From assembly GCF_026914265.1 (NCBI RefSeq), contig NC_069135.1, forward strand, positions 6,465,001-6,529,000: 64,000 nt of DNA, written 5' to 3'. The position numbers and the translations under genes are program-made. Within the stretch, counting starts at the first letter, position 1. Each line of letters starts with the position of its first letter. The notes below the pieces were generated by a model. It saw only the letters and a list, made by a program, of their open reading frames with translations. It was not told the DNA's origin and ran no database searches. This DNA is from Mya arenaria (taxonomy: Eukaryota; Mollusca; Bivalvia; Myida; Myidae). Positions 28,688-62,429 of the stretch are shown in pieces.

Positions 28688-31600
28688 ATGGGGTTGCGAG
28701 GCATCGGAGGCTTTATAAAATACTTCCTGTTTCTCTTTAATGCTGTTATTTTGGTAAGACAGTTTTCACATTACAATAGTTTACGATACCTGTTAAATAA
28801 ACAAACAAGGTCAGATAATGTATACGATATCAATAAGAGTTATGTGTGATCACATGGCCTTCTAAACATTGTCAATGAATGGAAGGGGTCAAACACTAGG
28901 CATGTGTTAGATTAAACATTATTTATTTCAATGAAACATTTTAAAAGGAATGGTATAATCAAAAAACATACCGTGTTAAAAATACACGTGAAAAATAAAC
29001 AAGTGATATATGCACAAAACAAAATAGTCACGCAAGGACATACTTACTCTTATGTATATACATATATTATGCTGTTGTATAAGTGTATGAGAACACACTA
29101 GTGTGTTAACTAGATAAAACAACATCAACAAAAGCAGCAACAAAAACAACAACAAAACAAACAGTAAAGATAAGACTACATCTGGGTGCTATGCTGAACG
29201 GCTATTATAGCAATCACATGGCAAACATGCTAGTATAATGTCTACATCTCACATTTAATAAGTAAATCACAGTTACGTTTATCATTGTGTTTAGAGAACT
29301 CGGAAACCAATCATAAATATTTGTGATGAAATATTCATAGATGCTGTTTAATTATCAATTTTATTCTTGATACGCAAATAGGAAGTGATATTATTATATA
29401 ATATACTCTAATAGCAGAACATTTTCCCATTGTTTGACGGCGAGTGCACGCATAAGATGATGCTCAAGAGGGTTATATAACCACTTTTGTTACCGCACTT
29501 ATTAACAAAAAGGCAAGGAATCATACAACAATACCACCAACAGACCACACACAGGCTAAAGGAAATGGCACTCCAGTTAAAAGCACTTAATCATGCTCTC
29601 AACCATATTGGGCTATGATATCAGAGAATCCGAATATAACATAGGTCAGTAAAAAAAGTTAACTTTTATTCCATATTAAATATTTAGAAACATTGAGAAA
29701 CATTGTTTCGACGAGGGACCACGTTTCAGTTATGATCTGTCAGAGTCGATCTCTGTTGAAATTGAAAAATACCTTAATGTTACTTTTTTGCTGTTGTTAC
29801 ATATTTGCATGAATTGAATTTGGGTCAGTATTAAAGACGACCACGAAGATTAGATAATGAAATATAATGTTATCTTCTTGTTACCATTCATGAGGTTTCT
29901 TATGATTTAATATTTTGGAAGTAACGACCACCGGGGAATCTTACCAATGCATGTATAATACGATACCCTTTTCGAAGTAGTTAAATTAAATTTGAAACAA
30001 CTCGTTTCAAATATCCCCCCTCCTCCCAAGAGCTGTCGATTCATCTAGCATCTGCTCAATCGTTCAACCTTTTCATCTTTCACTTCCCCAAATAACCACT
30101 AATTAAGAAGGAAAACTGCGTTACGCTTAGTATTTCACTCAATGGCATAACGGCAATATTTGATTTTTCACTTACATCATCAATCAAAACAGTAACGTTA
30201 AAGCCATTAATTGTTACAGCAGCCTGCAAGTTTTCACATGCACTGCCAACCTAGGTCAAAACACCCAAGTGGCACCCACAGCAATTTTTGTTATTAAGAC
30301 ATCAACAAGTGCCAGTGTTATAACAGAATATTTGTCGTATACTCTAAGTGGAGCTTATATCTCTTTCAAAATGAAAAGGGATGCAAAATCTCATTGTGTT
30401 TTCTCGGATCTCTGTGGTTAGAACATTAAGGGACCAGATTTGCAGATGTTTAAGCATCATAGTCTAAGTACATGATCATATACTATATTTATTATTCTCC
30501 TATAAACACAATTTACAGTTAATTACGCATACCAGAGATTTATAGTTCTGCTACTTATGATCATGACGTCATGGATGTTCTGGCAGAAGGATTCCTCGTA
30601 ATCACAAAGCACAATCACAGCATAAACATTGCAGACGACATTGATTTAGTGTGTTAACAAGCCAAGAACAACGGAAGATACGGGGACACGCCCAGTAGCC
30701 AAACAATTAACACATCCCCTATATAAAGGTTAAGGCCAACCAGACAATGAACAAGAGACTAACAATGCACTAACAATACAAACAATCTCTTTGATTTATG
30801 GCATCTGGACAATATAGTCAAATGAAGTAAAAGAAAACCACGTCAAAGAATCAAAAATGGCTGTTTAATAGGTATTGGAGTGAGGTTTGTGCACGTAAAC
30901 TGGTCTAAACCCCCAGTAAATTCAAGATTTACTGACCGTTCTAAGGCGGTACCTAACAATCCTTGATAAACATGCCTAGTTTTTTTTATATAATATATAT
31001 GCACTGTGTTGTTTGCGAAGTCTTATGCTGTTGTTCCATGTTTCTTGTTTGTGATTTTTTGTTTTATGTATTATGTCTTTGGCGTTTACCCTGTGCCATT
31101 AAACGGGGTTTATGTATAAATTTTGGGCTACTGAGCTTGTTTCTGTAGTTTTTAACATTAATATTTGGAGATATATCGTCAGAGGGAGGAAGATATGTTC
31201 TATGTAATTATTTTTCTCAGAACATAACATACCGACATTACATTAATTATGAGCTCTTTGAAATTGTGTTCACCTTCGTTTCTATACCACTGTGCGGGCC
31301 TGATATGATGGTTTTATCTGAAATTTGACAATAATTGAGAACTGTGAGACACTGGACAGAAGTACAGTGAGTAAAATGAACTCATAAATATTGTGACGAA
31401 AGCGCCACTGACTGACTGAACTTATGAATATCAGAGTTGGAGACACTTAGTAAACTTACACATATAAAAGGCACAAGCATGTTAACACGTGACTTCGATC
31501 TATCTATATATAATCTGAGTCTAAAAAATACACAGAGGATAGAAAACAATTAAAATCCTTGTTACCAATACATCGAAAAGTTTGGCATTTTATCTGCGCT

Positions 31601-34600
31601 ATCGTTTATATGTTATAACAAAAAAACATTATGGCATGCTTTAAGTGTCCTAAAATTAGCATCAATCGTTTTAATTATAAACAATTATACACACTTCAAC
31701 TTGTATTTCTCCGGTAACAAGATAAAAACATGCAAATAACGACGATTTATTATCTATATTGAAAGGTTTGCCTATTATGACAACAACTGGCAATGGAAAC
31801 ATGTTCAGTGTTTTCGTTTTGCATTTTGTAATACGCAACCGTATTGCCTCAGGTTTGTATATCATAACTGGTATTTCACATTTGTTACACCATATATCAA
31901 CGCAAACATCCAATTCCTGTAGTGTCTGATACTATATAAGCATCGTTCACAACTGAGATACACTTAAAACATCGGAAGCCATTTGGCCATTGATCGGACC
32001 AGATAATAAGCTGTTTCAGATGATTGGCAGTGTTATCATTCATATTGGCCTGTTGCTTACAAGATATACATCTTTCCTGAGAATTATTCCAGCGTCTTAT
32101 AATAAACAATAATTAAAACAAGGTCAACTTAGCAAATAAAATTGTTGAGTTTACCAGCCGCATCGCATGTTTACAAATGATTCTTTGTTGACCATTCTGT
32201 TACATACATTCATTTCATCTTTTTCCTTAATTGAAAACAAAACGTGTTATTCCAGGTGGCCGGATGTGCTCTGGTCGGGTTTGGTATCTACACACGGACC
32301 AGCAGTTCAGGCGTAACCAAGTTCTCTTCCATCTTGGGGAGCAACCTTCTACCAACTGTATCACTTGTCCTCATTGTCACCGGGGTGGTCATTGTGGTCA
32401 TTTCTTTTCTGGGTTGTTGTGGGGCCATTAAAGAGGTCAAATGTATGCTTGTTATGGTGAGAATAATTGTTTGCAATTACTCATTATAAAAAATACATTA
32501 TAAAAACAGAAAAAAACTATTGAATAACCTAAGTAAAGAAAAAGAACAAATGTCTAGCATTGTGCTTGCAATTTGTTTAGATAGATATAGGAGACAGCAT
32601 TATATTCGCAGAGAAGTGCACATAAGTTTTGAAACTATAAGTCTACGGAATTCCTTTACAAACATATATGTTTGAACTGTTTGTACCGACACAAAGCATT
32701 TTTCAATTAAAAAACAACTAAGACTCTTAGGCATCCCATGGGCCGTATTCTATGCCATAGGATATGTTTTATGACCATCATTTTTGTGTTTCAGTTCTTT
32801 GTACTGATGCTGCTCTTCTTTATTGCTTTTCTGGTCGGAGGTATCATGCTGTATGCCTTCAGAGAAAAGGTTGGTAGATAATGTGATCCGTATTTTTGTA
32901 TTTCATCTCCAAACTATACTTTATTTCAATGCATCATTCGAACGATGAAAGCGGAAAGATCTACTTCTTAATTGAATGCTACTATTTTGCCCTTAAAATT
33001 GTTTTAACGTCCTCTGGTGTGTTCGAATTGTGCAACAAGACGGATACTGTTTTTGCTACGGTAGCTATATGCCCTTTACACATTGACGAAAACGGTGCAA
33101 GTTAACTTATTTTTGTTAGTATTTGTTTATCAAGGTTGAGACTGAAACCTGAAAAATATAATTCCGTTATTAAGTTGATTGCTGATACTTCTAGATTGAA
33201 GACATGACACTAGACCAGTTGAGACGGCAGCTGAACCATTCTTATGGCCGATCAAGTGACGAGCAGGTCACAGAGGCATGGGACTCAATGCAGAAACTGG
33301 TAGGTGTAGGGGGATGTCACAGAGGCATGGGACTCAATGCAGAAACTGGTAGGTGTAGGGGGATGTCACAGAGGCATGGGACTCAATGCAGAAACTGGTA
33401 GGTGTAGGGGGATGTCACAGAGGCATGGGACTCAATGCAGAAACTGGTAGGTGTTGGGGATGTCACAGAAGCATGGGACTCAATGCAGAAACTGGTAGGT
33501 GTAGGGGGATGTTTTGTTTAGATACATATATGAAACTGTTTTGTTAGTTTCCCTTCCAATATAAACGATGAATAAACAATGTGACGTTTTATTTGTTTAC
33601 GAACATTGCTATTAGTGTAGTTACATTGCTGCAGAAAATGGTAAACGATTTAGTGGTGTAATCGGGGAGGACGTTATTTGATTTGATACAGACATTAAGT
33701 GAGAAAAGTTATCGATAGCAAACAAAATGCAGTTTATATGAATATGTACCGTTGCTTGGTAATACTTCTCCTTTATTTTTAAAAAATGTATGTCACCAGT
33801 ATGTGTCATAAAGCACAATCTTACTTATTTTCTCTTCAAATATTGCATTTCTGCGCTTGCCATGGATTCATACAAAAACCTATTTTCCAAGCTTGATTTT
33901 TTATCACTCGATTGTTCCAATTTTCTAGCCGATTGTTTATGCACCCCAAAGGCTTCTGATGCTTTAAGTGTACACACAGACTTGCTGAAATATTAAGCAA
34001 TAATTGTTTTCAATTTAGCTTATAAACCAACGGAATAGTATTTCTAAATGACACATGTGTAATACAGAAAAATAATATAATAGTTATAACCGGGAACAAG
34101 GTATAGCATGTGATAAAATAAATACATCTCTGGCAGCACTTTTATCTGATTACCAGTTATTTTCTCCACAGGAACTTGGAAATTTTAAAGAGTTATCTAC
34201 AGTTTGAGAGCATCTTTTAATTAATCAATTTAAATCACGTTGCGTAAACCGATTGAAATGGATAATGATTTTCCGCACACTGGGAATGATCTTGAAATGT
34301 CCTACTTTTTGTTACTGAATTAAACATTCTACTAGATATATTTGATAAAACCAAATGGTTGTATAACAATAACAGTCAGTTTCACAGACATATCTCTTCG
34401 TATGATATATAAAAAAAATCTAATTAAAATGCTACTTTCAACAGATGGGGTGGTATTTATTATTGATTTAAATTAGATCATAGAAGATGTAGCTAATCGG
34501 ATTGCGTGATTTGAATAACGGAACTATACCATGAATGAAGACTATCATGTTTGATCTTAAGTATGACTTAAGGTATATGCTGAATTCCACTCCTGGGCGC

Positions 34601-37600
34601 TGTTGTTTGCCCACATCGTCGGCTGCATTATTTAGGAAGTTAAATAACCGAGCAACCAAGAAGAGTAAGCCTTGCCCTTTTATCGATCGAGGAAATTAAA
34701 CTAAAATAACAAAATAATACAGTAATAACGAAACTTTTTGAGTTGATGTAAAATCTGATATTGCATTGTTTTTATATTTCTGTAACCATTTAACTTCCTG
34801 ATTTAAGATAAGCTTATTGCTGAAACATTTCATTTTCTTAAGGGTTTCATTTCAAAACATTGGCGATTATAACATATATCTTTATGAAACAAAATGACTT
34901 TTAGCAATGATAGTAACTCTTTTAATCAGACAGGGGTGCCAGTGTGCTTTCTGTTTTTAAATGAAAAGGTGAAGTGTCAAGCTTTGTTGTATGTTAAAAC
35001 AGCAACAGCTTGTCTGTCTATTTTAGGTTCGATTATTTCATTGGGATTAATTGTACTTTTCAAGAAATATAATGAGCATCCACAGAGAACGATTATACAT
35101 CTGTCTCTGGCAACTCTTACGTTAAGCGTTGCGTATGTGATACAAGGAATTCCATCGGAAAATAATACAATTTGCAAGGTCCAAGCATCGATATTGCAGT
35201 TTTCAGTTTGGGCATGTTTACTTTGGATTATGAACATTGCCTTCGGAATCTACTTTCGTGTTGTTTACGATATCGACATAAAACGACATGAAAAGGCATT
35301 GACAGTCATATTTTGGGCGTTTCCTTTTGTCACAATGGGGCTGCCGTTTTTGGATGATGCGTATCAGCCCGCTGGAGTTTGGTGTTGGTTAAGGAATGAC
35401 CATGCATGGCGGTTTGGATTGTGGTACTGTTGGAGAATTGTATCCATTGTGTTATTTGGCTATATAACGATTCATACAGAAATTGCCATTCGCAGACGAC
35501 GGAGGGGACGTTATTCAACTTCTATAACAAGTTTGACAACGATGGAGTCAGAAATGAAAACACTTCGAATATATCCAATCCTGTATTTTATCGTGAACAT
35601 TTTCCCTATCATAAATCGCATCCAAAACGCAGCAGTTCAAGTGCACGATCAAACAGGATACAGCTTTACACTGTTGCTTCTTCAATCCCTCTTCGACCCT
35701 TTGTTAGGTGTGACACTGTCTCTTGCGTATGTTCTTGATGGAAAGACAAGGAGCAAGCTGAACAAAGCTGGCATTACAGATGCTTTAAGACGATGGCGAT
35801 CAAAACGGACGGATGTAAGGGTTTTCCACGTTTCTGTACAGTTCCCGGACTTAAACATATCTGTGGAAAAAACACACCCTTAACAGTGTTTATTTGTACC
35901 ATCGACAAATATTTTTCACACAGTCATGTTTCGCAATTTGAACAGCCCAAGTCATAGATCAGTATAAATTCTAGAAAGTTTCTCCTAAAGCTATGTGTTA
36001 CACTTTATCTAGCGAATGTTATAGAGATTGGTGTTGCAGACGCCAGAAGACAATGGCGATCAAAGTCAACGGATACAGGGTGTTCCATGTTTCGATACGG
36101 TGTCTAGACCTGAATGTTTCAGTGAATAATACTTTAAGAGAAACTGATCAGATACGTAGTCGTGTGCGTGGAGCATGTGACCATGACTTGTTATACATTC
36201 CATGTAATATTTTATTGCATTTTGTTAATTTTGCAATACTTTCTATATAAAGGTATTTATCGATTTTTTTTCGTTTTGTTGAGGATTTTTTAAGCCAATA
36301 CCGATTGTCGTTCTTGTGTTGTCCTTAACTTTGATATATGTTATCTATTTTTTTGCACATACTATTTTTTTTTATGCAGTTCAATATAGTTTTGGTCTAT
36401 GATTTATTGATTGATGTCAAAGACTGAACAAAACACTGGTGTCATAAATATGTTATTTTCAAAGCGGTTTAAAAACAAAACCGGAATACATTATGTAGTT
36501 TAGTGATTAATTTATACACTGTATTGAATAATGGTTTTCTGGCATTCGAGTGAAATGTAAAAGCACGTGTGTAGTAAAAATCCGTCCATGTATAGTTATC
36601 TTGACTTTCTTACATATACTGCTCAGTTTTGTACGGAACATCATACTGATTTGATATTACTATGACAAATCACGGATTCGACTACGCTCAAATAAAGATG
36701 ATAATGTCAGTTTCAGTTTGTTTATACTTCGTCTCAGGCATACACTAAACATATGGAGTTAAAGCTGCACTCTCACAGATTGAACATTTTGACAACTTGT
36801 TTATTTTTTATCTTGGAGCGAGCCAAATTTTGCAAAAATCCCTGGAAACCAGTTATATAAGACTGCTGACCAAAATTGAGATCGCAGATTTTTATATTTA
36901 AGTTCAAAAATCGATGTTTTATGAATTTTTCTTAAACCGTTAGTAACGGTTTAAGCCATAAAACATCTTTGTCAGCAATCTTATATCATTGGTTTGAAAA
37001 ATTTGCTCTTTCCAAGACAAAAAAAAATAAAAAGTTGTAAAAACGGTAAATCTGTGAGAGTGCAGCTTTAAGGGACATTTTCGGCTTTATCGAGATCGTT
37101 TGTTAATAATAATTACGCGTTGAATGAGGCCTCTTGAAAACTTCTCATTACTCAGCTAGCTGATAACAAAAACTGTCAAGAAAAGGGAAGATTTGTTAGT
37201 TGAACTCACAGAAGACAAAATCAAACAAAAAACTTTAAATTGTTCACAGATTCTGTCGCAATCTATGTGCTATATAAGACCGCATGGCCCGAGTGGCTCA
37301 GTCGAGGAAATGTAGCGTATGGCCCTTCAAGAGTTGTTAAAACAACTTGACAGTTTGTTATGGAAATGGAATAAGAACATAAGACTGCGCCAGTGCACAT
37401 AAAGTCAAGACAAGCATTTCGCGCTGATTAGGTGTGGTCAAGCATGTGGTTGTAGATGATGGTATTGGCCGAACGGCGTTACTTTTTCATTCAGCTATGC
37501 ATACTTAGCATTGAAATCGGAGTGAGCTTTTGAGATTCACCAGTTTGCCATTATTTCTGCTTTCATATTTTAGTTCCAGTGTTGCGGTATCACAGGCGAA

Positions 37601-39473
37601 GTCAATTCAACAGAGTCTTGGGCATATTACAAAACGTATACAGACTGGTTTCACAACAACACAGGTATACGAAACACACACGGAAGGTTTGTCGATTTCG
37701 CAAACCCTATCTTGTTGGTTTGTTTTGTTTTGCTTGTATCTTCAAAAGTAGAAGTTATAGCTTTCTATTTCTAAAAGGAAAATACCAACTTCGTAGTTAA
37801 AGTGAAAATGTCACTAAAGGTATAAATCAAGAAAAGAAAGTATCATTTGTTTTTAAGTTATTTCATCAATAGGCAGAACGTTTAATGGATTATACAGGGG
37901 AAAAAATAATATATTTAACTGAATAATTTCATACATATAGTACAATCTAAAACCTTTCGAAAGTTAATTAAAAAACCCTTTCCAACAGAACTGGCAAAGA
38001 AATCTCGGAAGCTGCAACTTGAATACGTACCATTGAGCTGCTGTGTGGACCCGGAAAATACGCCCAACGTGACCCAGTGTCAGGGCTTATCTCGACCAAC
38101 AATCATCCCCGTTACGGGCCCACCTGTCGGTGAAGATCAGACCAATGACCAATTATTTACTGAGGTATAATAATCAATTGTTGTCCATTATGTGTTGTTG
38201 CTCTAGTGACAGAGACTCTCCCGACCAACCAAAGATAGCTGAGAAAGAGTATACCACTGTTGGCCAATATTTGTTAGTGACAGCATCTCTCGACCAATTA
38301 TCATCGCCGTTACATTCCTATCCGTTCGTGAAAACCAGACCAATTACAAAATGTTAAATGTGATATAGTAAAACTTATATTTGGAATACAGTTTAGCTTC
38401 CATTGAACCACTTCCAGTACACACCTGTTTCAATAAAGTTTTTAGTCGTACAATCGCATTTTTCTTAATATCATTTAGTCATTACCTAAATTTTTTACTG
38501 AGTATTAAGATTGAAGATAAAGTTGGAGCATGAAACAAAATCAACATATCACAAATTGTTATATATTTCTTTATATTTTTATATTTTGTAGCTACGACTT
38601 AAATGCTTTACTGGAACTCAACCAGACCGGCGGTTTACTTAACTGAGCTATACTGTATTGTAGAAAGCATGTTGGTCAGTAGGTGATATTTTCATTAAGT
38701 GTTTATTGTTCCAACGACCGTCCGCAAAGACGGTCAACTGGTTACGTAGGAATGTGTTGTATTTAAGAGATGCGTATACTTAGACTGGGTTTGTCCTTGA
38801 GTTTCTATTTGAGGTTTTCGCCACAATGCAAATCTGGATACATTGATTTAAAAAAAAAGTTCAAAGGGATGACACTGCTTTTCTCAGAATAACATTTGTT
38901 GTGTAATACTTAGTTCCCGTACATCATTTTTTCTCTCAATTTACAGGGGTGCTACACATCTTTGAACAATATGCTGAAAGACAACTTGAAAGTCTTAATT
39001 GGAGTCAGCGGAGGGATTGCAGTAGCAATGGTAAGATGCTGGCGGCACTTTTATTAAAAGATCATAGTCTTCTTAAAAATAAATGTTTTTACATATTCTC
39101 AGGTTTAGGTTATACATATTTCTATTAGTTCGGTTGTGAAGAAAATCACCCTCGAGTCCGTTTCCTTCGCCGTACTTATGTCCTATATGAGTACGTGAGA
39201 AAGTACCCCTAAAGGGAGAGGGCGGGGGGTTGAAGCCACAGCCCCTTGGGTGAGAGGCGTTCGCCTATACCACATCACCACTCTCACCTCAAGCCTCAAT
39301 TTTAACCTTTCAACACTGCAGTAAGTTATTATATTTATGAAGAACTACTTTTGATTTTAGTCAGTCTTTTTACATACTAATTCCACTTTTCTACATTTCA
39401 GATACTCGGAATGGCATTTTCTATATGCTTATGCAAGAAGATAAGGGAAGACGATGACTACGAATGTGACTGA
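28688..39473 (+). CDS. Tetraspanin, 8 coding exons, 289 residues
   Basis: Four-pass membrane scaffold that organises partner receptors into membrane microdomains. Coding exons: 28688-28753, 32256-32456, 32795-32869, 33195-33299, 37574-37664, 37989-38164, 38947-39030, 39402-39473. All sites are GT-AG; the exon 5/6 junction is phase 1, the rest phase 0. Transmembrane helices lie near residues 9-33, 53-76, 86-112 and 258-280. The large extracellular loop has all six hallmark cysteines: CCG at 152-154, PLSCC at 194-198, C210 and the C in EGC at 240. Further family marks are GCCGAIKE after helix 2 and the short polar tail KKIREDDDYECD. N-glycosylation sequons occur at NHS, NST, NNT and NVT. Introns are long (3.5 kb after exon 1, 4.3 kb after exon 4). 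Intron 4 contains a receptor gene on the same strand. The last part of exon 6 and its donor site are satellite-derived. AATAAA is at 39716-39721. Which tetraspanin subfamily this is remains open. Confidence 0.93.
28754..32255 (+). other. Tetraspanin intron 1
   Basis: GTAAGA...TTATTCCAG intron of 3.5 kb. No recognised gene lies inside it. Parts of its 3' half (about 30080-30180 and 31700-32100) are similar to 43010-43450, showing that the downstream duplicated unit B begins within intron 1 sequence. A low-complexity CAA-rich run lies near 29120-29165. Confidence 0.5.
33267..33511 (+). repeat. 49-bp tandem array repeating the exon 4 splice donor five times
   Basis: The unit begins GTCACAGAGGCATGGGACTC, runs through AATGCAGAAACTG|GTAGGTGT and ends GGGGGAT. 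Copies start at 33267, 33316, 33365, 33414 and 33462 (periods 49, 49, 49, 48). The first copy is the real 3' end of tetraspanin exon 4; each later copy carries the same CTG|GTAGGT donor, at 33300, 33349, 33398, 33447 and 33495. Only the first donor keeps the tetraspanin frame. The next two shift it, and the last two, although multiples of three away, would read a stop at 33399-33401. Confidence 0.95.
34894..35883 (+). CDS. Class E (cAMP-receptor-like) seven-helix receptor, copy A
   Basis: Intronless 329-residue membrane receptor of the slime-mould cAR type (Dicty_CAR family). It shares the cAR landmarks ACLLW in helix 3, GVWCWLRND...WRFGLWY in loop 2/helix 5 (cAR1: NWCWI...YRFGLFY) and YFIVNIFPIINRIQNA in helix 6. 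Helices lie near residues 36-56, 66-86, 97-121, 135-153, 175-195, 226-247 and 256-280. C94 and C164 are placed for the usual helix 3-loop 2 disulfide. Sequons occur at N5 and N11, with no signal peptide. Loop 3 has an RRRRRGR cluster, and helix 7 ends before a Ser/Lys-rich tail. The ligand in animals is unknown to me. The gene lies inside tetraspanin intron 4, same strand. The flank before the ATG (ACTTCCTGATT...AAACAAAATG) is shared with copies B and C. A candidate AATAAA is at 36691-36696, far downstream. Confidence 0.88.
   Translation: MTFSNDSNSFNQTGVPVCFLFLNEKVKCQALLYVKTATACLSILGSIISLGLIVLFKKYNEHPQRTIIHLSLATLTLSVAYVIQGIPSENNTICKVQASILQFSVWACLLWIMNIAFGIYFRVVYDIDIKRHEKALTVIFWAFPFVTMGLPFLDDAYQPAGVWCWLRNDHAWRFGLWYCWRIVSIVLFGYITIHTEIAIRRRRRGRYSTSITSLTTMESEMKTLRIYPILYFIVNIFPIINRIQNAAVQVHDQTGYSFTLLLLQSLFDPLLGVTLSLAYVLDGKTRSKLNKAGITDALRRWRSKRTDVRVFHVSVQFPDLNISVEKTHP
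35990..36130 (+). pseudogene. Repeated 3'-tail fragment of the receptor gene, unit A
   Basis: At 36026-36130, GTTGCAGACGCCAGAAGACA, ATGGCGATCAAAG and GTGTTCCATGTTTC, followed by CTAGACCTGAATGTTTCAGT, mirror the end of the receptor just upstream (ATTACAGATGCTTTAAGACG...GGGTTTTCCACGTTTC...CCGGACTTAAACATATCTGT). The copy lacks helices 1-7 and cannot encode a receptor. Related fragments follow copies B and C at the same relative place. Confidence 0.65.
36759..37071. mobile_element. MITE with 23-bp terminal inverted repeats
   Basis: Left end TTAAAGCTGCACTCTCACAG, right end CTGTGAGAGTGCAGCTTTAA, 313 bp apart. The inverted similarity extends inward: AACATTTTGACAACTT pairs with AAGTTGTAAAAACGGT. The element is non-coding, with an internal palindrome AAACCGTTAGTAACGGTTT near 36936-36954. 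It lies in tetraspanin intron 4, 3' of receptor copy A. A truncated relative is at 20738-20848. Confidence 0.85.
37285..37320 (+). repeat. Possible tRNA-derived (SINE) head fragment
   Basis: GGCCCGAGTGGCTCAGTCGA resembles the start of a tRNA with an A-box, but no B-box follows at the expected distance and the rest is not tRNA-like. Probably a truncated retroposon in tetraspanin intron 4. Confidence 0.3.
38088..38345 (+). repeat. Satellite monomers overlapping tetraspanin exon 6
   Basis: Two adjacent copies of a ~125-130-bp unit: CTCGACCAACNATCATCCCC, GTTACGGGCCCACCNGT, GAAGACCAGACCAATGACCA, TTNTTTACTGAGGTA, TTGTTGGCCATTATGTGTTG and CACTAGTGACAG. The first copy supplies the last ~75 coding nucleotides of exon 6 and its donor (ACTGAG|GTATAA). 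The second is intronic. The same unit forms arrays at 47590-47780 and 53830-54800. Confidence 0.8.
39125..39288 (-). mobile_element. tRNA-derived SINE, minus strand
   Basis: Read on the minus strand from 39288: a tRNA-like head with GATGTGGTATAGGCGAACG (A-box region), CTCTCACCCAAGGGG and a worn B-box GGCTTCAACCCCC at 39237-39225. A core containing GGAAACGGACTCGAGGGTGA follows. Head plus conserved core is the usual SINE build. The copy is diverged and sits in the last tetraspanin intron. Confidence 0.6.
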
Positions 39474-45170: not shown

Positions 45171-45586
45171 ATTTTAACACATATCACTTCTGTGCCACCG
45201 CAGATGCTCTGTTATTAAATCTGCTTTTCTACCGCTAGTTGCAAGAGTAAAATATGTGTTACCTTGACGACGACTGGCCGATCGTCTTGATTTCACGTAA
45301 TGTCGGTTAGATAATTTATAATGTAAAATAATCCAGCAAATAAGTATAGAAAACAAACCATGATCTCATAGTGAATAAGGAAATATATGGAATGTCACAA
45401 AAAATGAATCTGCCAAAACTGTTTTGGTTGATGTATAATTTGATGCATTGTACTTTTCATCATCCATTCACTGTGTAACTCGAATACTCATTTTAACTTC
45501 CTGATTTTACATTACAAAACATTTCATACGGATCCTATTTTCAGAAGAAAATATAGAATAAAAGTTATATATTGGAATAAAACAAA

Positions 45587-46576
45587 ATGGAGTTTACCAA
45601 TGAAAGTAACTATTTTAATCATACAGGAGTGCCAGAATGCTCTCTGTTTCCAACTGACAGAGTGAAGTGCCGAGCATTGCTGTATGCTAAAACAGTAACA
45701 GCTTCTTTATCTATTTTAGGTTCAGTTCTAACATTGGGATTAGTTGTACTGTTCAAAAAATATAATGAACATTCACAAAGAATGATTATACATCTGTCAC
45801 TGGCAGCACTTGTTTTTGGAGTTGCTTATGTGATACAAGGAATTCCGTCTGAAAATAATGCAATTTGCAAGGTCCAAGCATCGATATTGCAATTCTCCGT
45901 TTGTGCATGTTTACTTTGGATTATGAACATTGCCTTCGGAATCTACTTTCGTGTTGTTTACGATATCAACATAAAACGTTATGAAAAGATATTGACATTC
46001 CTATTATGGACGTTGTCTTTGATCATAACGGCGCTACCCTTTTCGGATAATGCGTATCAGCCCGCTGGAGTTTGGTGTTGGCTGCGGAATGACGATGCAT
46101 GGCGGTTTGGATTGTGGTACTGTTGGAGAATTTTATCCATTGTGTTATTTGGCTATACAATGATTCATACAGAAATTACAATTCGCAGACGTCGGAGGGG
46201 AACTTTTTCTACTTCTATCACAAGTTTGACAGCGATGGAGTCAGAAATAAAAACACTTCGAATATATCCAATCCTGTATTTCATTGTGAACATTTTCCCT
46301 ATCATAAATCGCATCCAAAACGCAGCAGTCCAGTTGCGCGAGCAAACAGGATACAGCTTTACACTATTGCTTCTTCAAACACTCTTCGACCCGTTGTTTG
46401 GTGTGACACTGTCTCTTGCGTATGTTCTTGATGGAACGACAAGGAGCAGACTGAACAAAGCTGAAATTACAGATGCTTTAAGACGATGGCGATCAAAACC
46501 GGCGCATGTAAGTGTGTACCGCGTGCCTGTACCGTCCCCGGACATGAACATATCTGTAATAAACACACACTCTTAA
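45587..46576 (+). CDS. Class E (cAMP-receptor-like) seven-helix receptor, copy B
   Basis: Intronless 329-residue paralogue of copy A, with the same landmarks: GVWCWLRND, WRFGLWYCW, the RRRRRG cluster in loop 3, YFIVNIFPIINRIQNA and LAYVLDGTTRSRLN. N-terminal sequons NES and NHT. By eye it differs from copy C at about 30 of 327 aligned positions and more from copy A, so B and C are the younger pair. One visible oddity is QFSVCACLLW: C replaces a Trp found in A and C near the start of helix 3. The frame is intact from ATG (TTTGGAATAAAACAAAATG context) to TAA at 46574-46576. AATAAA lies at 46942-46947. It no longer sits inside a working tetraspanin gene. Confidence 0.88.
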   Translation: MEFTNESNYFNHTGVPECSLFPTDRVKCRALLYAKTVTASLSILGSVLTLGLVVLFKKYNEHSQRMIIHLSLAALVFGVAYVIQGIPSENNAICKVQASILQFSVCACLLWIMNIAFGIYFRVVYDINIKRYEKILTFLLWTLSLIITALPFSDNAYQPAGVWCWLRNDDAWRFGLWYCWRILSIVLFGYTMIHTEITIRRRRRGTFSTSITSLTAMESEIKTLRIYPILYFIVNIFPIINRIQNAAVQLREQTGYSFTLLLLQTLFDPLFGVTLSLAYVLDGTTRSRLNKAEITDALRRWRSKPAHVSVYRVPVPSPDMNISVINTHS

Positions 46577-46739
46577 CACTGTAAATTTGTACCATAAACA
46601 AATTACAGACACATATTTCAAGCCATGTATCGCAAAATGAACGACCATAGCCAAAGATCAGAGATAACGTCATATTGCTGCACTTGCATGCCTTTTCGAG
46701 CGGTTCCTTTCTAGTTGATACATTGCGTATGTTGAGGAA

Positions 46740-46845
46740 CATGATCAACCAGGCACCATGAAGCAATCGAAGCCAACGAATATTAGGGTGTTTCACGTTT
46801 CCTAGACCTGAATGTAACAGTTAACGATATCACTCAGAGAAACTG
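46740..46845 (+). pseudogene. Repeated 3'-tail fragment of the receptor gene, unit B
   Basis: ATCGAAGCCAACGAATATTA...GTGTTTCACGTTTC and CTAGACCTGAATGTAACAGT correspond to the fragment at 36055-36130 in unit A and 52555-52640 in unit C. It is non-coding. Confidence 0.55.
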
Positions 46846-47589
46846 ATCAGATGCGTAACTGTGTGTGTTAAGGTTGTCTTGCAACATTTTTTTGAAATTT
46901 ATTATTAAAGCGATAGCTTCTCTATAATGGTATTCACAGAAAATAAAATACCATGACTGGTCGTTTCTCTTGATGATGTTTTTCATTATTTTGGTGTACA
47001 TTTAATGTGATTTATTTTTCTTTGTGTATTATTTTTTTTTACAAAGTAAAGTTCACGAATCATTTTAGCTTAAGGCATATTAAGAAAAATGTGGTTGTCA
47101 TTACTTGTGATTCAAGGCGTTAGTTAAAAGTATGTCAACATTATACATGATAAAGTTTAACAGTCATTTACTACGTTGTATCAAATTATGGACATCATAC
47201 ATCATTCACGCATTTAGTGCTCATATTTGTACTGTAAAACATGTATTATATTAAAACGAAAATGTCCTCAATGTGATATTATAATTAGGAGTATTTGGTC
47301 TTAACATATTTATAAATAATATTTTATTATTAATTTGTAGACATCATTTATATACATGTGAACAACGATTAATTGCTTGAGGCTTGTGTTCGTTTGAAAG
47401 TATATCATTTGCATTCAGGAATAAACATCAAATAACCTGTTGAGTTAGGCCTCTTGTGCACTTTCTATTTCTAAGTTTAACACTTAATACTATTAGCTTT
47501 GTTCTAAAGTGTGTTCGATTCACGTGAGACAAAACAAACAAACGCCATAACGCTAGTAATATGTTCAATCTCGGTCAATCATCTCCCCC

Positions 47590-47785
47590 ATAACAGACCT
47601 ACCTGTTAGTGAAGACGTGACCAATGATCATTGTTTACTGAGGAATGGTAAAATATACACTGTTGGACATTAAGTGTTGTTGCCATAATAATAGTGACAG
47701 GGTCTCTCTCGACCAACCAACATCTTCGCTACGGACCCAACCGCGAGCGCCATACCTATTGAATGCAAGTACAAATGTAAAAATA
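47590..47785 (+). repeat. Satellite monomers ending unit B
   Basis: One and a half copies of the ~125-130-bp satellite seen at 38088-38345, with CCCCCATAACAGACCTACCT, TGAAGACGTGACCAATGATC, TTGTTTACTGAGG and GGTCTCTCTCGACCAACCAA. It joins directly onto the degraded tetraspanin exon 2 copy of unit C. Confidence 0.75.
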
Positions 47786-47796
47786 AACGTGCTATT

Positions 47797-47912
47797 CCAG
47801 GCGGTAGGTATCAACACGAGGACCAGCAGTTCAGACGAGGTCCAAGTGTGGTTATATATTTCCATGTTGTTGGGCCATCAAAAAAGTCAAATATGTTCTT
47901 CTCATTGTAAGA
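47797..47912 (+). pseudogene. Degraded copy of tetraspanin exon 2
   Basis: GTGCTATTCCAGGCGGTAGG and TATCAACACGAGGACCAGCAGTTCAG match the acceptor and start of exon 2 at 32250-32310. TGTTGTTGGGCCATCAAAAAAGTCAAAT and CTTCTCATTGTAAG match its end (GGCCATTAAAGAGGTCAAAT...CTTGTTATG|GTGAG). A central deletion removes most of helix 2. Confidence 0.8.
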
Positions 47913-48333
47913 AGAAAACAAACATATAACCTTTTATATTAATAATCCACACACTCTAGTTCGCTTTTTTTCTTCTGAATGAAAATAATAACACATAATA
48001 GGAAAATAGGAATATGAAAACTTTTGATGCACGTCAGTTTAAGGTCAAGAAGGACACAGGTCAACAAAAAGAATACTTTTGATGAACACAAGGGTTTATG
48101 ATTAAACTTTTTGCAACTGAGCTTGTTTTTGTAGCTTTTTGCATAAATATTGGAACTTTTTGTAAATGAAATTCAAGTTAGAATGATATGTTTGAACTGA
48201 TTGTACCTACATTAATCCTGTTATAATTTCCAACTTAAGAGAACACCTGAACCATTCGTATGATTACACGGGATCGTATTATATTCTTGAAGGCGGGATA
48301 ACTGGCTTTATTGCAAATACTGATGTGTTTCAG

Positions 48334-48412
48334 TTCTCTATACTGATGCTGCTCCTCTTATTTGTTTTCATGGTCGGAGGTATCATGTTGTATGCCTTCA
48401 GGAAAAAAGGTT
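48334..48412 (+). pseudogene. Degraded copy of tetraspanin exon 3
   Basis: GTGTTTCAG|TTCTCTATACTGATGCTGCT...GTCGGAGGTATCATG...TATGCCTTCAGGAAAAAAGG is a near copy of exon 3 at 32795-32869 (TTCTTTGTACTGATGCTGCT...). Substitutions and a base gain at the donor side leave it without its normal frame. It still reads as helix 3 (LMLLLLFVFMVGGIMLYAF). Confidence 0.85.
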
Positions 48413-48429
48413 GGTAGGTAATGTGTTTT

Positions 48430-50339
48430 AGCGAATGGTCCACCAAGCGATTTTATACCATAGGAGAGGTGTTCAACAATGCATAATTACTTTTAAAAAC
48501 GTGTATATCTGTCTCCATAATAATTGTTATTTGGAACCATTTGGTTTTGCCCATTTATTTCAATGTGTGCACAAAACGGTTGTGCGAGATCGATTACACA
48601 AAGGAAAACAAATATTGACGTCGACAATACATAAGCTTCCGTGTCTAAAGCTGGATAAAATGGTTATATTGAAAATATATCAAATCGCCATAAAATGGTC
48701 ATTTATGTTGCATCGGCGATAAAACAATATTCGTTATGACTTTATAGGCATAACGACATTTATTTTTAGGAAATAAACCGCTCTATTTAAGTCCTGTAAG
48801 AATTGTTTATGTAGTCGCAGTAATACACAACTTCGTAATTTTGACGCATTGTGGTCGTTTGTTTACACTTTCTGACAGTCGGAAGTGCAATTAATTTTTA
48901 TATACTGCTTTCGATTCTGGGATCGAATGTAATCAGATATCAAGATTTAAGGCTGAAATTATTAACCAGTCTGTCATAGCTCTTCCTTTCCGTTTTCGTC
49001 GTCTGTAGGATAGCATACAAAAATTTACACCCGCCCTCCCACTCCCCATTGTTTTTCACATGTAGAGTAAACAGTAAAGTTTCTTACAGCATCAAGGCAT
49101 TAAACGGTGTTCTTGCTGTCCTTTTTCTGCTTGTGTATTTTCAGTGCGCTCGGTGTTGTAATAATGATTGAGAGAATTGTTCGTGGAGATGAAAAAACTT
49201 GCCAGGAGCACAAACGGCGTCGCTGTGTTTGATCGTTGTCCCCTCGAGTGACACACAGACAACGGGACCTATTACTACAATATGCGCCAAGGATAAGACT
49301 GGGAGATTCGTTTATATCTTATATAGTGCCAGTCTTTTAACATAAGTTGTTATACTCATTCACATGTCTTCTTTTTATTACAAGTCGCAAAGAAAAATTC
49401 AGCCAGCTGAGAGTAGGGCAACATTTAATCTACATGATCACTATATCAGTCAATAATCTTTTTGGTTAAATCCAATATTTTTTATGTTTGTTCCCAACTT
49501 GAAACTTGATGGCGGGGCTAAGCCCCATACCCATCGGTGAATTGGTGGTTACAGACAAACGGGCAAAAACATGTTAAGACGATAAGTCCTTAGGTTGTTG
49601 CTCTTGTGTTATGGTAACACCTATGTTTTGTAACCCTGCAGGTTCTTGCGTGTTGTGTCTAGTAATTTGTGCGTTTAACCTTTAAACGCTGTGGAAACAG
49701 TTTGCTTTGCGTTTTGATTGCGTGTCAGCAGGTTCTTGCGTGTTGTGTCCAGTAATTTTTGCGTTTAACCTTTAAACGCTGTGGAAACAGTTTGCTTTGC
49801 GTTTTAATTGCGTGTCAGCAGGGTGTGTATTGCGTACAAACATTGCGTTAAGTTTAACTTTAAATATTTAGCAAAGGGGGGGGGGTAAAAATACAAATTA
49901 TCTGCCCTTATCTCGGCTGGTTGTATTTTTAACGGACTGCTTGGCGCCTTAAAGCGAACCCTTGCAGTTCCGTTTTTTGCCGCCGCATATGTCCACATAC
50001 GTCCATTTTTTGTTTTGAATTTTATTACAATAAGTACGTAGTACATTGATGTTATATATTGCGGTGTCATCCACGATATTTTCTCTGTTCAAAAAGTTGC
50101 AACTCAATAAAATGATATGTTTAAGAGCTGGCGTTTGTTACAGTTTATTTCACTTATAAAATAATCACGAGTTACTAACAGTATTTTCGTGAAAGTTCAT
50201 CAGTATGTGCACTATTTTGCTCAAAATTGTATAATTTTCTAAAAAGGCACGATTTAGTATAATGATACGTATATTCAAGCACTTGAATCGGAAAACCGAT
50301 AATTTTCTTCAGTTTGTCTACTGTATGAAAGCGATTTTT
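48430..50339. other. Spacer within unit C
   Basis: No genes recognised. It contains the 90-bp tandem duplication at 49641-49820, and a G-run near 49876-49885. It does not visibly align with intron 3 or intron 4 of the tetraspanin and may be inserted sequence. Confidence 0.4.
49641..49820. repeat. Perfect-length 90-bp tandem duplication
   Basis: Two copies, 49641-49730 and 49731-49820, starting GGTTCTTGCGTGTTGTGTC and ending GCGTGTCAGCA, differ at only three or so positions. Each contains the palindrome GCGTTTAACCTTTAAACGC. The near identity indicates a recent duplication. Confidence 0.95.
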
Positions 50340-50814
50340 TACTAAATCAATTTAAACCACTTAAGGTAAACCAATTTAAATTGATACCCCACGATGGAAA
50401 CAATCATTATTTTTGTTTTTGAACTAAAGAAGTAATAAAATATATTTTTGTTAAATCCAAAGATAATTAAAAGAGTTACCTTGGGGATTTTGAAAGTCCG
50501 TTCCGAAACCTATTCTAACATTTATACAAAAAAGACACTAAATGAGTTCTTATAACTGCATTGAAAAGAACATCTATATACATAATGGAATTAATTTCAT
50601 CCTTCTACAGAAGATGTGCCTGTGCAAAATTGGATTCAAACTTACAAATATTTCATTTAAAATCCGTTTGTTTTTGGTTACTAGTGATTTTTTTATTATC
50701 ATTATTTGGTTGTAAAACTGGGTATCTTCTCGATGCTTACATCATATCAGTATATTTAAATGACCAAAATATTTTATGATCTCTCGCAACAATACTAAAC
50801 TGTTTATTCCATGG

Positions 50815-50960
50815 CAACGTCTTATAATCTTGTTCCTATGACCTTGTTATATCGTGGATACAACATAATTTTGTCTTACAAACTGTTTCCACGACTAAAT
50901 CTGCCGTGGTCACGACTTGCATATAACTAAGTTGTGGGAATGAGTAAGTTGTTGCCATTA
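50815..50960. repeat. Palindrome-rich repeat upstream of receptor copy C
   Basis: Diverged counterpart of 45035-45170 with CTGTTTCCACGACTAAATCT, GCCGTGGTCACGACTTG and ATATAACTAAGTTGTGGGAA. It holds the same position relative to the receptor start. Confidence 0.55.
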
Positions 50961-51377
50961 TATAATAAAATTCTAATATATATCATCTCTCTGTGCCACC
51001 ATAGATTGGCGCTGTATCATTTAATGCTGCTTTTTTTCCATATAAAAATATGTTAAAAACCTTGACGTCGGGCCGATCGTCTTGACTTGACGTAACGTCG
51101 GTTAGATTATTTAGAATTAAAAAAACAAGAGCAAACAAGTATAGAAAATAAACCATGAGCTCCTAGTGATTAAGGAAATAAAAGGAATGTCACAAAATAA
51201 TGAATGATAACGCAACTGTTTGGATTGACGTATAATCTGAAATTGCATTTTATCTGATATTGACTGTAACTCGGCTAATCATTTTTACTTCCTGATTCAA
51301 GATAAGCAAACATTTCATACGGATCCGATTTTCAGTAAAAAATATAGACGAAAAATTATATATTTTAATTAAACAAA

Positions 51378-52361
51378 ATGGAGTTTACCAATGATAGTAA
51401 CTATTTTAATCAGACAGAAGTGCCAGAATGCTCTCTGTTTCCAACTGACAGAGTGAAGTGCCGAGCATTGCTGTATGTTAAAACAGGAACAGCTTCTTTA
51501 TCTATTTTAGGTTCAGTTCTAACATTAGGATTAGTTGTACTGTTCAAAAAATATAATGAACATTCACAAAGAATGATTATACATCTATCACTGGCAACAC
51601 TTGTTTTTGGAGTTACATATGTGATACAAGGAATTCCGTCTGAAAATAATGCAATTTGCAAGGTCCAAGCATCGATATTGCAATTCTCCGTTTGGGCATG
51701 TTTACTCTGGATTATGAACATTGCCTTTGGAATCTACTTTCGTGTTGTTTACGATATCAACATACAACAATATGAAAAGATATTGACATTCCTATTATGG
51801 GCGTTGCCTTTGATCACAATGGCGCTACCCTTTTCGGAAAATGCGTATCAACCCGCTGGAGTTTGGTGTTGGCTGCGGAATGACAATGGATGGCGGTTTG
51901 GATTGTGGTACTGTTGGAGAATTTTATCCATTGTGTTATTTGGCTATACAATGATTCATACAGAAATTACAATTCGTAGACGTCGGAGGGGAACTTATTC
52001 AACTTCTATCACAAGTTTGACAGCGATGGAGTCAGAAATAAAAACACTTCGAATATATCCAATCCTGTATTTCATTGTGAACATTTTCCCTATCATAAAT
52101 CGCATCCAAAACGCAGCAGTTCAAGTGCACGATCAAAGAGGTTACACTTTTACACTGTTGCTTCTTCAAACACTCTTTGACCCATTGTTTGGTGTGACAC
52201 TGTCTCTTGCGTATGTTCTTGATGGAACGACAAGGAGCAGGCTCAACAAAGCTGGTATTACTGATGCTTTAAGACGATGGCGATCAAAACCAACGGATGT
52301 AAGTGTGTACCGCGTTCCTGAACAGGCCCCGCACATGAAAATATCTGTAATAAAGACATAA
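51378..52361 (+). CDS. Class E (cAMP-receptor-like) seven-helix receptor, copy C
   Basis: Intronless 327-residue paralogue of copies A and B. It keeps both conserved cysteines, the GVWCWLRND and WRFGLWYCW segments, the RRRRRG loop 3 cluster and the YFIVNIFPIINRIQNA helix. N-terminal sequons NDS and NQT. Differences from copy B concentrate in the N-terminus, the helix 4/loop 2 region, the loop between helices 6 and 7 (VHDQRGYT) and the last 25 residues, the parts most likely to meet ligands or partners. The ATG context (TTAATTAAACAAAATG) and the preceding ~100 bp are shared with copy B. It ends at TAA, 52359-52361, two codons shorter than B. No stop or frameshift was seen. Confidence 0.88.
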   Translation: MEFTNDSNYFNQTEVPECSLFPTDRVKCRALLYVKTGTASLSILGSVLTLGLVVLFKKYNEHSQRMIIHLSLATLVFGVTYVIQGIPSENNAICKVQASILQFSVWACLLWIMNIAFGIYFRVVYDINIQQYEKILTFLLWALPLITMALPFSENAYQPAGVWCWLRNDNGWRFGLWYCWRILSIVLFGYTMIHTEITIRRRRRGTYSTSITSLTAMESEIKTLRIYPILYFIVNIFPIINRIQNAAVQVHDQRGYTFTLLLLQTLFDPLFGVTLSLAYVLDGTTRSRLNKAGITDALRRWRSKPTDVSVYRVPEQAPHMKISVIKT

Positions 52362-52544
52362 ACTTAACACTGTATATTTGTACCATAAACACATTATAGA
52401 CACATATTTCGAGTCATGTATCGCAAAATGAACGACCCATAGCCAACGATCAGAGATAATTTCATATTGTTGCACTTGCATGTCTTTTTCGATCGGTTCC
52501 TTTCTAGTTTATATATTGCGTATGTTGAGGAATATGATAAACCA

Positions 52545-52645
52545 GGCACCATGAAGTGATCGAAGCCACCGAATATAATGGTGTTCCACGTTTCCATTCG
52601 GTGCCCTAGACCTGAATGTAACAGTGAACGATATCACTCAGAAAA
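52545..52645 (+). pseudogene. Repeated 3'-tail fragment of the receptor gene, unit C
   Basis: GATCGAAGCCACCGAATATA, GGTGTTCCACGTTTCCATTC and CCTAGACCTGAATGTAACAG correspond to the fragments at 36055-36130 and 46745-46830. It is non-coding. Confidence 0.55.
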
Positions 52646-52675
52646 ATTGATCAGATGTGTAATTGTGTGTTGGTG

Positions 52676-52684
52676 TATTAGTTG

Positions 52685-52741
<57 letters not shown>

Positions 52742-52765
52742 ACGTGTGTGTGTGTGTGTGTGTGT
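52676..52765. repeat. (TG)n microsatellite
   Basis: About 85 bp of TG repeats with two short CGTG interruptions. The equivalent place in unit B has only AACTGTGTGTGTTAAG, so the expansion is specific to unit C. Confidence 0.95.
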
Positions 52766-53829
52766 CTTGCATTTTGTTTTGTTTTTTACGCGATAGCTTC
52801 TATATAATGATGTTAATTGATTAGAGAAATTAACCATAATCGGTCGTCGCTCTTTTTTACCATATATTTGGTGGACATTGCATATGAATTGTCTTTCTTT
52901 GTCTATTGTCTTTATGTTACGAAGTAAAGTTCACGTATCTTTTTGAGTTAAGACATATCTCTAGCAACGCGGTGGTCACAACTTGTTATTTCAAAATGTT
53001 ATCTAAAAGTATGTCAACATCATACATGACGAAGTTAAACGGTAAATTATTACTTTGTATGAAATAATGATTTGGTGGCCTGTGCACGGATTGTAATTGC
53101 TTGCTTGGACATTATATATTACACATACATTAAGTGCTCATATTTGTACTGTAATATTTTTTATATAAAAACGAACGTTTCCTCCTCAACGTGTTATTAT
53201 AATCAGAAATATTTGTTCTAAATATAATGTTTTATGCATTTGTTTTTAATGTGTAGACTTCATTCATATACATGTGACCAACGATTGATTGCTTGAGGCT
53301 TGTGAATTTATAAATAGTATTTTGTATTCAGGATAAAAACAGATTACCTCTTTAGTTAGGCCTCTTGTGCACTATTACCCAGATAGCTAATAACAAAAGT
53401 TGTCATGAAAAGGGTAGCTTTCTGCTTATATATGTTCGATTCACATAAGACAAATCAAACAAACAACGCTTTAAATGTATCACAAAATCTACAATAATGA
53501 CTGGTATATAAGCTGTATAAAACCCTAGCCGGTGTATTTCCCATTGAACTTATAAGAAAAAATAGCCTATGTCGCTCGATGACCTTTGAAACTGAAAATA
53601 TGGCCGATTAACTTTACAGCATATTATAGAAATGCACACAATGTTAATGGAAATCGTTGTCGGGCAAGTGTTTGACAATAATGGTTTGTACCGTATCTTT
53701 ATCCAAACTGTATTTCTTATAGGAAAACAACATAGGATAAGTTATATAGATACGTTACAAAAGGCATTACTGTCTTTTTAATTATGCTTTTTGTTTGATT
53801 TCATTTATAGCTAAATCAATCAGGTGTTC

Positions 53830-54830
53830 GTGAAAAACAGGTCATTTATCAATTGTTCACTTGGGTAGAGTATACATTATTGGCCATTATGTGTTGTTGC
53901 ATAACACTAGTGGTACGGTCTCTCATGACCAGCCATCATCCTAGTTACGGACCCACCCGTTCGTGAAGATACTACCATCGACCTATTGTTTACTCAGGAA
54001 AAGTATACAGTATTGGTCAATATGTGTTAATGCCATAACGCTAGTAATAAGCTCAGTATCCGCCAACCATCTTCCCCATAACAGACCTACCTGTTAGTGA
54101 AGACAAGACCAATGCCCATTGTTTACTGAGATATGGTAGAATAGACACTGATGGTCATTAAGTGTTGTTACCATTATAATAGTGACAGGGTCTCTCTCGA
54201 CCAACCATCATCTCCGCTACGGACCTACCCGCGAGCGCCATACCAATTACCAATTGATTTGCTTAGGTAGAGTATACCTTGCAGGCCATCTTTCGTTGTT
54301 GCCATAACACTAAGGACCCGGTCTCTCTCAACCGACCGTAATCCTTGTTACGGACCTACTCGTCTGAGAAGACCAGGCCAATGAACAATTGTTTCCTGAG
54401 GTAGAGTATACATTGTTGACGACCATGTCTTGTTGCCATAACACTAGTGACAGGGTCTCTCTCTCTCGACCAATCTTTTTCCCCGTTACTGGCCTACCCG
54501 TGCGTATAGAAGACCAGGCCATTGCTCAACAGTTAAGGTAGAGTATACATTGGTGACCATCATGTATTGGTGCCATAAGACTAGCAACATGGTCTCTCCG
54601 GTACGGCCCACCCTTCCGTGCAGACCACCCTTCCGTGCAGACCACTCAAATGACAAATAGTTTCCCGAAGTAGAGTATATATTGTTGGCCAATATTCGTT
54701 GTTTTAATACTACTAATGACATGGTCTCACTCGACCAATCACCATCCCATTCACGGACTTACCCGTTCGCATAAAAGACCAGGGTAATGATCAATTGTTC
54801 ACTGAGGAGTGGTAGATTTGTCAAAGACTC
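53830..54830 (+). repeat. Satellite array, ~125-bp unit, about 8 copies
   Basis: The consensus parts GGTCTCTCTCGACCAACCAT, CCCGTTACGGACCTACCCGT, GAAGACCAGGCCAATGATCA, TTGTTTACTGAGGTAGAGTA, TACATTGTTGGCCATTATGT and GTTGCCATAACACTAGTGAC recur about eight times. This is the same family that forms the end of tetraspanin exon 6. Some copies have local duplications (for example CCACCCTTCCGTGCAGA twice near 54606-54640). Confidence 0.88.
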
Positions 54831-54915
54831 TGTCATCAAGTAAATGTCAAATACTTTGTGATCAATTTTATGTCAAAGACTATCATTAATTTTTTGTCAA
54901 AGACTCTGTCAGAAT
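54815..54915. repeat. Short tandem repeat of GTCAAAGACT units
   Basis: TTGTCAAAGACTCTGTCATC, ATGTCAAATACTTTGTGATC, ATGTCAAAGACTATCATTA and TTGTCAAAGACTCTGTCAGA give four diverged copies of a ~30-bp unit just after the satellite array. Confidence 0.75.
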
Positions 54916-54929
54916 GCGATTATAGACGT

Positions 54930-59370: not shown

Positions 59371-59565
59371 TCGAGAAGGGCGAGGCAACTATGCAAATTT
59401 ATACTAGAGTTGGGCAGCTATAGAGTCGAGTTGTGTATTTATGGTGTTGAGAAGGGCAACTTTGCAAGTTTAGTGTGAGTATTCAACAGTTACGCAACTA
59501 TTCAAACAGTGTCGAGTAGGGCAACTATGCAAATATAGTGTCAAGTAGGGCAACTAATAGAATAT
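59370..59565. repeat. Degenerate tandem repeat, ~38-bp unit
   Basis: GTCGAGTAGGGCAACTATGC followed by AAATTTAGT-like sequence recurs about five times with small indels. Confidence 0.65.
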
Positions 59566-59569
59566 ATTT

Positions 59570-60790: not shown

Positions 60791-60805
60791 TAATCAAAAC
60801 ACTTA

Positions 60806-61068: not shown

Positions 61069-61069
61069 C

Positions 61070-62150: not shown

Positions 62151-62155
62151 CTTAC

Positions 62156-62311: not shown

Positions 62312-62429
62312 CTACGCACAGGGTACAGAAGGTAGAAAAATCAGCACTTAGTATGCTTATCAAAAATTGCTCTCCCTGAGTCAGGTTATGACCGCTGTGG
62401 GCAAGAGTAGCTAATTCTTCACAAATACC

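Follow-up and report, generated by a model that had tools for sequence, protein, structure and literature searches.

A short tandem repeat probably derived from the end of a tetraspanin exon and its splice donor in the bivalve Mya arenaria

In a stretch of 64,000 nucleotides from the genome of Mya arenaria (C14:6465001-6529000, hereafter the window), the end of exon 6 of a tetraspanin gene and its splice donor were found to belong to a tandem repeat that also forms arrays outside the gene. The data indicate, with a probability of about 0.92, that this repeat was born from the gene by a tandem duplication spanning the donor, and that it was not recruited into the gene. The direction from exon to repeat is drawn from the conservation of the homologues, the reading-frame memory of the arrays, the polarity of the residue differences and the anatomy of the unit. 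The initial annotation had proposed that a satellite was recruited as coding sequence and splice donor, and had given as an alternative that the repeat arose from an ancestral exon end; the same four lines of evidence favour the alternative. The further remark of the annotation, that a tandem repeat and a coding exon are connected whichever came first, holds. All coordinates are window positions, and values beyond 64 kb extend past the end of the window.

Host gene and repeat unit

The joined exons 2 to 8 encode 267 amino acids (aa), with 100% identity and full coverage against P0001, described as 'TSN11-like protein [Mya arenaria]' (289 aa), and the first 22 residues of this protein were located by tblastn at 28688-28753. 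The gene comprises eight coding exons, the last one ending at 39473 (Table 1). P0001 belongs to the Pfam family Tetraspanin (PF00335; E 1.2e-55, 189.1 bits, cut-off 32.1), with the loop cysteines in the motifs FQCCG of exon 5 and SCC of exon 6; the numbering of C210 and C240 used in the initial annotation is correct for the 289-aa protein. A gene model in which intron 6 is removed once, with the first donor in use, gives the annotated protein, and no new intron is created.

The repeat unit consists of the last 89 nt of exon 6 (38076-38164), the donor and 29-40 nt of intron 6, according to the cut point. In a blastn comparison of 38000-38600 with the window, 38089-38232 matched 47568-47720 (72%, E 2e-17), and copies were obtained at 53.8-54.8 kb (best E 7e-17). 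A unit profile, built on five of the units at 54 kb with the exon left out and searched over a 134-kb region with nhmmer, matched 38076-38194 with 70.0 bits (E 7.7e-21 in 134 kb). After 1000 dinucleotide shuffles of 38069-38200, 16 shuffled sequences gave any match, with a best score of 4.2 bits against 69.9 bits for the real stretch. The score of the profile lies far above the shuffles, and therefore the end of exon 6 forms, together with its donor and the beginning of intron 6, one repeat unit, the exon being the 5'-most one. The homology begins at about 38076, within the codons of Gln209 and Cys210, and for the first half of exon 6 (37989-38075) the self-match was the sole hit across the 134-kb region (threshold E <= 1e-3). 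The earlier description of the exon end and donor as a repeat monomer is confirmed by blastn, profile and shuffles, but its start has to be placed at about 38076 and not at 38088, with 89 nt of exon.

Full units measure 131-137 bp, with a period of 134 in Tandem Repeats Finder (TRF), and not about 125 bp as initially estimated; the arrays do lie at 47.6 and 54 kb, as had been described. The window holds 13 units, including the exon and partial units, arranged head-to-tail but in short arrays, with three units in the gene (the two that follow the exon, in intron 6, being degenerate), two at 47.6 kb (array B) and eight at 54 kb (array C, one of them partial). These are not the long arrays of satellite DNA, and the name satellite is unwarranted by their length. 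Pairs of units are about 51-79% identical, mostly about 55-75%, except B1-C2 (86%) and B2-C3 (84%). GTAGAG is kept at the donor in five of the nine outside units covering the donor segment, and in the alignment B1 and C2 also keep a GT, after a 5-nt insertion; these counts are small.

Conservation of the loop and coding memory of the arrays

From a total of 79 matches, 37 were aligned, the Mya protein and 36 homologues, the other 42 (P0038-P0079) being weaker and more distant (E 2.4e-27 or worse). Named rows account for 22 of the 36, which we take to be 21 bivalves and gastropods and the nemertean Tubulanus. C210 and C240 are present in all 37 aligned rows, and the loop between them has a length of 27-31 residues (29 in Mya, and in 19 of the 37 rows). 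Its core, PPV...NDQL...TEGC, is carried by most of the aligned homologues: PP[VLIA] is present in 34 of 37 rows including Mya (33 of 36 without it), N[DEN][QELIM][LM] in 30 and TEGC in 25, Mya counted in both. There is no insert in the Mya loop, whose length is within the range of the 36 homologues, and the initial count of about 25 repeat-derived residues between C210 and C240 is thus not supported. Because the loop length is nearly the same in the aligned homologues and most of them have the core, the end of exon 6 is judged from the protein comparison to be older than the repeat. As non-coding DNA, repeat units that are 51-86% identical could hardly retain a likeness to the homologues since the split of bivalves and gastropods.

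The consensus of the 12 non-exon units, read in the frame of the exon, gives a stop followed by QGLSRPTIIPVTDLPVREDQTNDQLFTE; single units are broken by stops or gaps, and codon 210 is a stop in 8 of the 11 units that cover it. With a hidden Markov model (HMM) of the loop, built from the 36 homologues with Mya excluded, the exon scored 55.9 bits and the array consensus 37.6 bits in the exon frame, against <= 0.7 in the other frames of the consensus. Since the consensus matches the loop HMM and most single units do not, the coding sequence lost by most individual units is still remembered by the array taken together. The mean loop identity to the 36 homologues was 49.8% for the exon and 41.1% for the array consensus. 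Exon and consensus show four sense differences, C210>stop, G223>D, P224>L and G227>R. The homologues have C at position 210 (36/36), P at position 224 (35/36) and G at position 223 (21/36), and at three of the four sites the exon likely retains the ancestral residue.

Additionally, 12 of 87 sites differ between the exon and the array consensus, distributed over the three codon positions as 2/2/8 (binomial P 0.019), whereas the differences of the non-exon units from their own consensus are even, 71/58/73 (chi-square P 0.37; Fisher P 0.037 for the contrast with the exon). The same lean was obtained with consensi from overlapping subsets of units (3/2/9, 4/4/11, 3/3/11 and 4/4/13). The distance to the array consensus was 13.8% for the exon, left out, and from 12.0% (C3) to 38.8% (C6) for single units left out in turn. 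The lean over codon positions fits, to a modest degree, an exon that may be under purifying selection beside free-running copies.

If, on the other hand, a pre-existing satellite had entered the end of exon 6, supplying about 25 residues and the donor, a likeness of exon and arrays far beyond chance would also be expected. A further point for recruitment is that tetraspanin loops in general are variable in the C210-C240 region. Such an insertion is, however, very unlikely in view of the nearly equal loop length in all 36 aligned homologues and the conserved core in most of them; the alignment with homologues had been named beforehand as the test that could refute recruitment, and the same loop was found, as far as protein can show. 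Recruitment leaves unexplained that the array consensus matches the homologues in one frame only, and the likely ancestral residues at three of the four sites are in the exon and not in the array. The genome was also searched at the DNA level with three queries (1.216 Gb, 18 contigs; very common words were skipped and counts are lower bounds). Only the locus at C14 6.50-6.54 Mb was listed, in searches of limited sensitivity in which the exon query missed known copies of 72-75%; the lack of listed copies away from the locus gives no support to a genome-wide satellite and speaks against recruitment, both within that limit.

Several observations weigh against the origin of the repeat from the exon. 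Among single units the loop HMM gave 19.8 bits for C7 and 12.8 for C1, and the other 10 of the 12 remained at <= 7.4 bits in any frame. The D at position 223, as in the array, is present in 3 of the 36 homologues, and G227R is uninformative on polarity (homologues G 5, R 4). The contrast between codon positions has modest significance (P about 0.02-0.04) with 12 differences, and unit C3 is at least as close to the consensus as the exon. Independence cannot be assumed for the 36 homologues, some entries of which look like near-duplicates, e.g., P0017/P0034 and P0018/P0035. Splicing at the first donor is presumed from the annotated protein, and the absence of the array in other bivalves from protein conservation. 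Finally, diverged copies elsewhere in the genome could be missed, and the evidence for confinement to the locus is weak.

Duplicated copies of the locus and the exon 4 repeat

The region carries a tandem family of single-exon receptor-like frames, the first one inside intron 4 of the tetraspanin gene; each of the three copies within the window has an open frame of 330-331 residues. Further receptor copies were detected by blastn beyond the window, at 69.3, 75.2 and 94.1 kb, and an array follows five of the six copies in the 134-kb region, that at 94.1 kb having only a weak array match at 98.5 kb (10.4 bits, E 0.019). Pieces of the tetraspanin gene (exon 2 fragments, exon 3, exons 7 and 8) are scattered through the duplicated copies, and a search of the 134-kb region revealed no intact tetraspanin exon 5, 6 or 7 next to the outside arrays. 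The stretch 47541-47760 matches 54029-54248 at 88%; from this match and the closeness of B1 to C2 and of B2 to C3 it follows that the array existed, already diverged, before the receptor-bearing block was duplicated. A stretch of 18.4 kb (45533-63891) recurs at 69303-87723 with 99.28% identity, either as a very recent segmental duplication or as an assembly artefact (uncollapsed haplotype), and thus, among the five arrays, two are almost identical duplicates of two others. The region of the last tetraspanin exon has further copies at 98977-99411 (77%) and 101919-102463 (74%), downstream of the last receptor copy.

Segmental duplication of the locus and the scattered fragments of exons 2, 3, 7 and 8 would also agree with arrays that are decayed copies of exon 6, formed with no tandem amplification. 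This is extremely unlikely, given that array C has eight units head-to-tail (the first one partial) with full units of 131-137 bp, that no 5' half of exon 6 was found beside these units, and that two extra units are inside the intact gene. Decayed exon copies without tandem amplification are contradicted by the head-to-tail spacing of the units.

The end of exon 4 carries a 49-bp minisatellite of five units, each with the exon end and a donor, the first unit being exonic. Of the five donors, the first alone yields the 289-aa protein; a frameshift results from donors 2 and 3, and donors 4 and 5 maintain an in-frame length but lead to a stop at residue 183. This repeat has the same design as that of exon 6, at a young stage.

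The four further intact donors of exon 4, together with the GTAGAG of five of the nine outside units and the GT of B1 and C2, could be taken as a sign that units in intron 6 or outside the gene are functional, for example as decoy donors or as exon-end copies regulating splicing. Such a role is nevertheless improbable: both units in intron 6 are without a GT at the place of the donor, the units have diverged to about 51-79% identity (apart from the B1-C2 and B2-C3 pairs) with differences spread evenly over codon positions, and the outside arrays have no intact tetraspanin exons 5-7 beside them.

Other features of the window are a single open frame of 1596 codons at 13235-18022 on the minus strand, presumably of a SAMD9-type protein by its appearance; an open frame at 801-1838 ending in three C2H2 zinc fingers, which we take by its appearance to be Kruppel-like; and a 52-bp tandem array of about 18 copies at 5562-6505. 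The coordinates of the features of the locus are detailed in Table 1.

Table 1. Features of the tetraspanin locus of Mya arenaria, in window positions.
Feature	Position	Strand	Evidence
Tetraspanin exon 1, coding part, MGLRGIGGFIKYFLFLFNAVIL	28688..28753	+	tblastn with P0001 N-terminus, 100%; GT donor next
Tetraspanin exon 2	32256..32456	+	gene model, exons 2-8 = P0001; splice sites
Tetraspanin exon 3	32795..32869	+	gene model, P0001 match
Tetraspanin exon 4; final 33 nt and donor are unit 1 of the 49-bp repeat	33195..33299	+	gene model, TRF
49-bp minisatellite, 5 units, unit 1 exonic	33267..33512	+	TRF, 97% matches
Receptor-like open frame copy 1, intron 4, stop-to-stop	34888..35880	+	open frame; Pfam Dicty_CAR PF05462, E 5.5e-13
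Tetraspanin exon 5 (CCG motif)	37574..37664	+	gene model, P0001 match
Tetraspanin exon 6, coding, conserved loop	37989..38164	+	gene model, P0001 match, homologue alignment
Repeat unit 1: 89 nt of exon 6, donor GAG/GTATAA, 29 nt of intron 6	38076..38193	+	nhmmer, 70.0 bits; alignment
Repeat unit 2, intron 6, internal deletion, without GT at donor place	38194..38273	+	two short profile matches; alignment
Repeat unit 3, intron 6, without GT at donor place	38275..38384	+	36.7 bits; alignment
Tetraspanin exon 7	38947..39030	+	gene model, P0001 match
Tetraspanin exon 8 with stop	39402..39473	+	gene model, P0001 match
Receptor-like open frame copy 2, stop-to-stop	45581..46573	+	open frame; Pfam PF05462, E 3.9e-16
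Array B: units B1 and B2 (B2 truncated)	47544..47768	+	blastn, profile, alignment
Degenerate exon 2 fragments	47796..47906	+	tblastn 47807-47833, 47865-47906; blastn 47807-47837
Exon 3 copy, 86% DNA identity	48334..48408	+	similarity searches
Receptor-like open frame copy 3, stop-to-stop	51369..52358	+	open frame, similarity; Pfam scan covered copies 1-2
Array C: units C0 (partial) to C7	53821..54815	+	TRF, blastn, profile, alignment

Proposed origin and relation to known systems

The anatomy of the unit suggests a tandem duplication of a stretch that starts at the codon of Cys210, crosses the donor of exon 6 and includes about the first 40 nt of intron 6. The first donor, joined to the exon, would have stayed in use, the protein would have remained unchanged, and all added units would have fallen into the intron. 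Freed from selection, these units would then have mutated and gained stops and further copies; decay of units, stops and extra copies are all present in the sequence. The locus, with the nested receptor gene, would subsequently have been segmentally duplicated several times, most tetraspanin exons being lost or decayed in the copies, with the arrays retained and the receptor frames of the window still open. Segmental copies with lost exons, open receptor frames and persisting arrays are observed. Exon 6 itself would have been kept under purifying selection, for which there is modest support, since it encodes a portion of the extracellular loop in a tetraspanin widely conserved in molluscs. This explanation requires no function of the arrays.

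For CapA satellite DNA of platyrrhine monkeys, Valeri et al. (2018) reportedly suggested an origin in an intron of NOS1AP (as described in PMC8210747) and, as proposed for Mya, the tandem repeat is traced back to a single-copy gene fragment. CapA reportedly derives from an intron and became a major satellite, whereas the Mya repeat includes 89 nt of coding exon with its donor and is present in short arrays. A known route of intron gain is described in which a tandem duplication spans a splice boundary (PMC4974935; PMC3443670, where Gao and Lynch, 2009, and Hellsten, 2011, are cited); there, as in the Mya unit of exon 6 end, donor and intron head, the duplication crosses a splice boundary and splicing sorts the exonic from the intronic copy. 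As described there, however, intron gain creates a new intron, while the Mya copies would enlarge an existing intron and then form an array.

Exonised repeats, such as those of Alu-type recruitment, have a unit that extends over a coding exon with its donor. The Mya case shares this overlap, but its direction would be the opposite one, with the exon ancestral; orthologues without the repeat-derived segment are expected under exonisation, and the loop is present in 36 of 36 aligned homologues. The sources named for satellite DNA in the review passages covered are transposable elements, ribosomal DNA spacers and other tandem repeats (PMC5615363, PMC12692304); a passage of PMC10048060 added no information on such sources. 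Like these, the Mya repeat would be a tandemised fragment of another genomic element; unlike those derived from transposable elements or ribosomal DNA, its source would be the end of a conserved coding exon. No satellite or array derived from a coding exon end and its donor was found in the titles and abstract openings covered, which include few subscription papers. The Mya repeat, small as far as seen, would belong with the gene-derived tandem repeats, and its candidate source, the loop, is conserved in homologous proteins.

The locus provides a worked example of how the direction, from exon to repeat or the reverse, can be resolved, homologue conservation, frame memory and polarity all pointing from exon to repeat, and it offers a simple and testable route of repeat birth, by a donor-spanning duplication hidden by splicing. 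A repeat that overlaps an exon should not at once be called an exonisation, and a genuine, conserved exon could be truncated if such repeats are masked. More speculatively, splice donors might be a nursery of tandem repeats, in which duplications spanning a donor are invisible to the protein while the first donor is used, and arrays grow into introns; we consider this generalisation doubtful. If it were true, a single gene of Mya arenaria would show the process at two ages, young in exon 4 and old in exon 6 (two of seven donors), and decayed arrays would hold a readable record of ancestral coding sequence.

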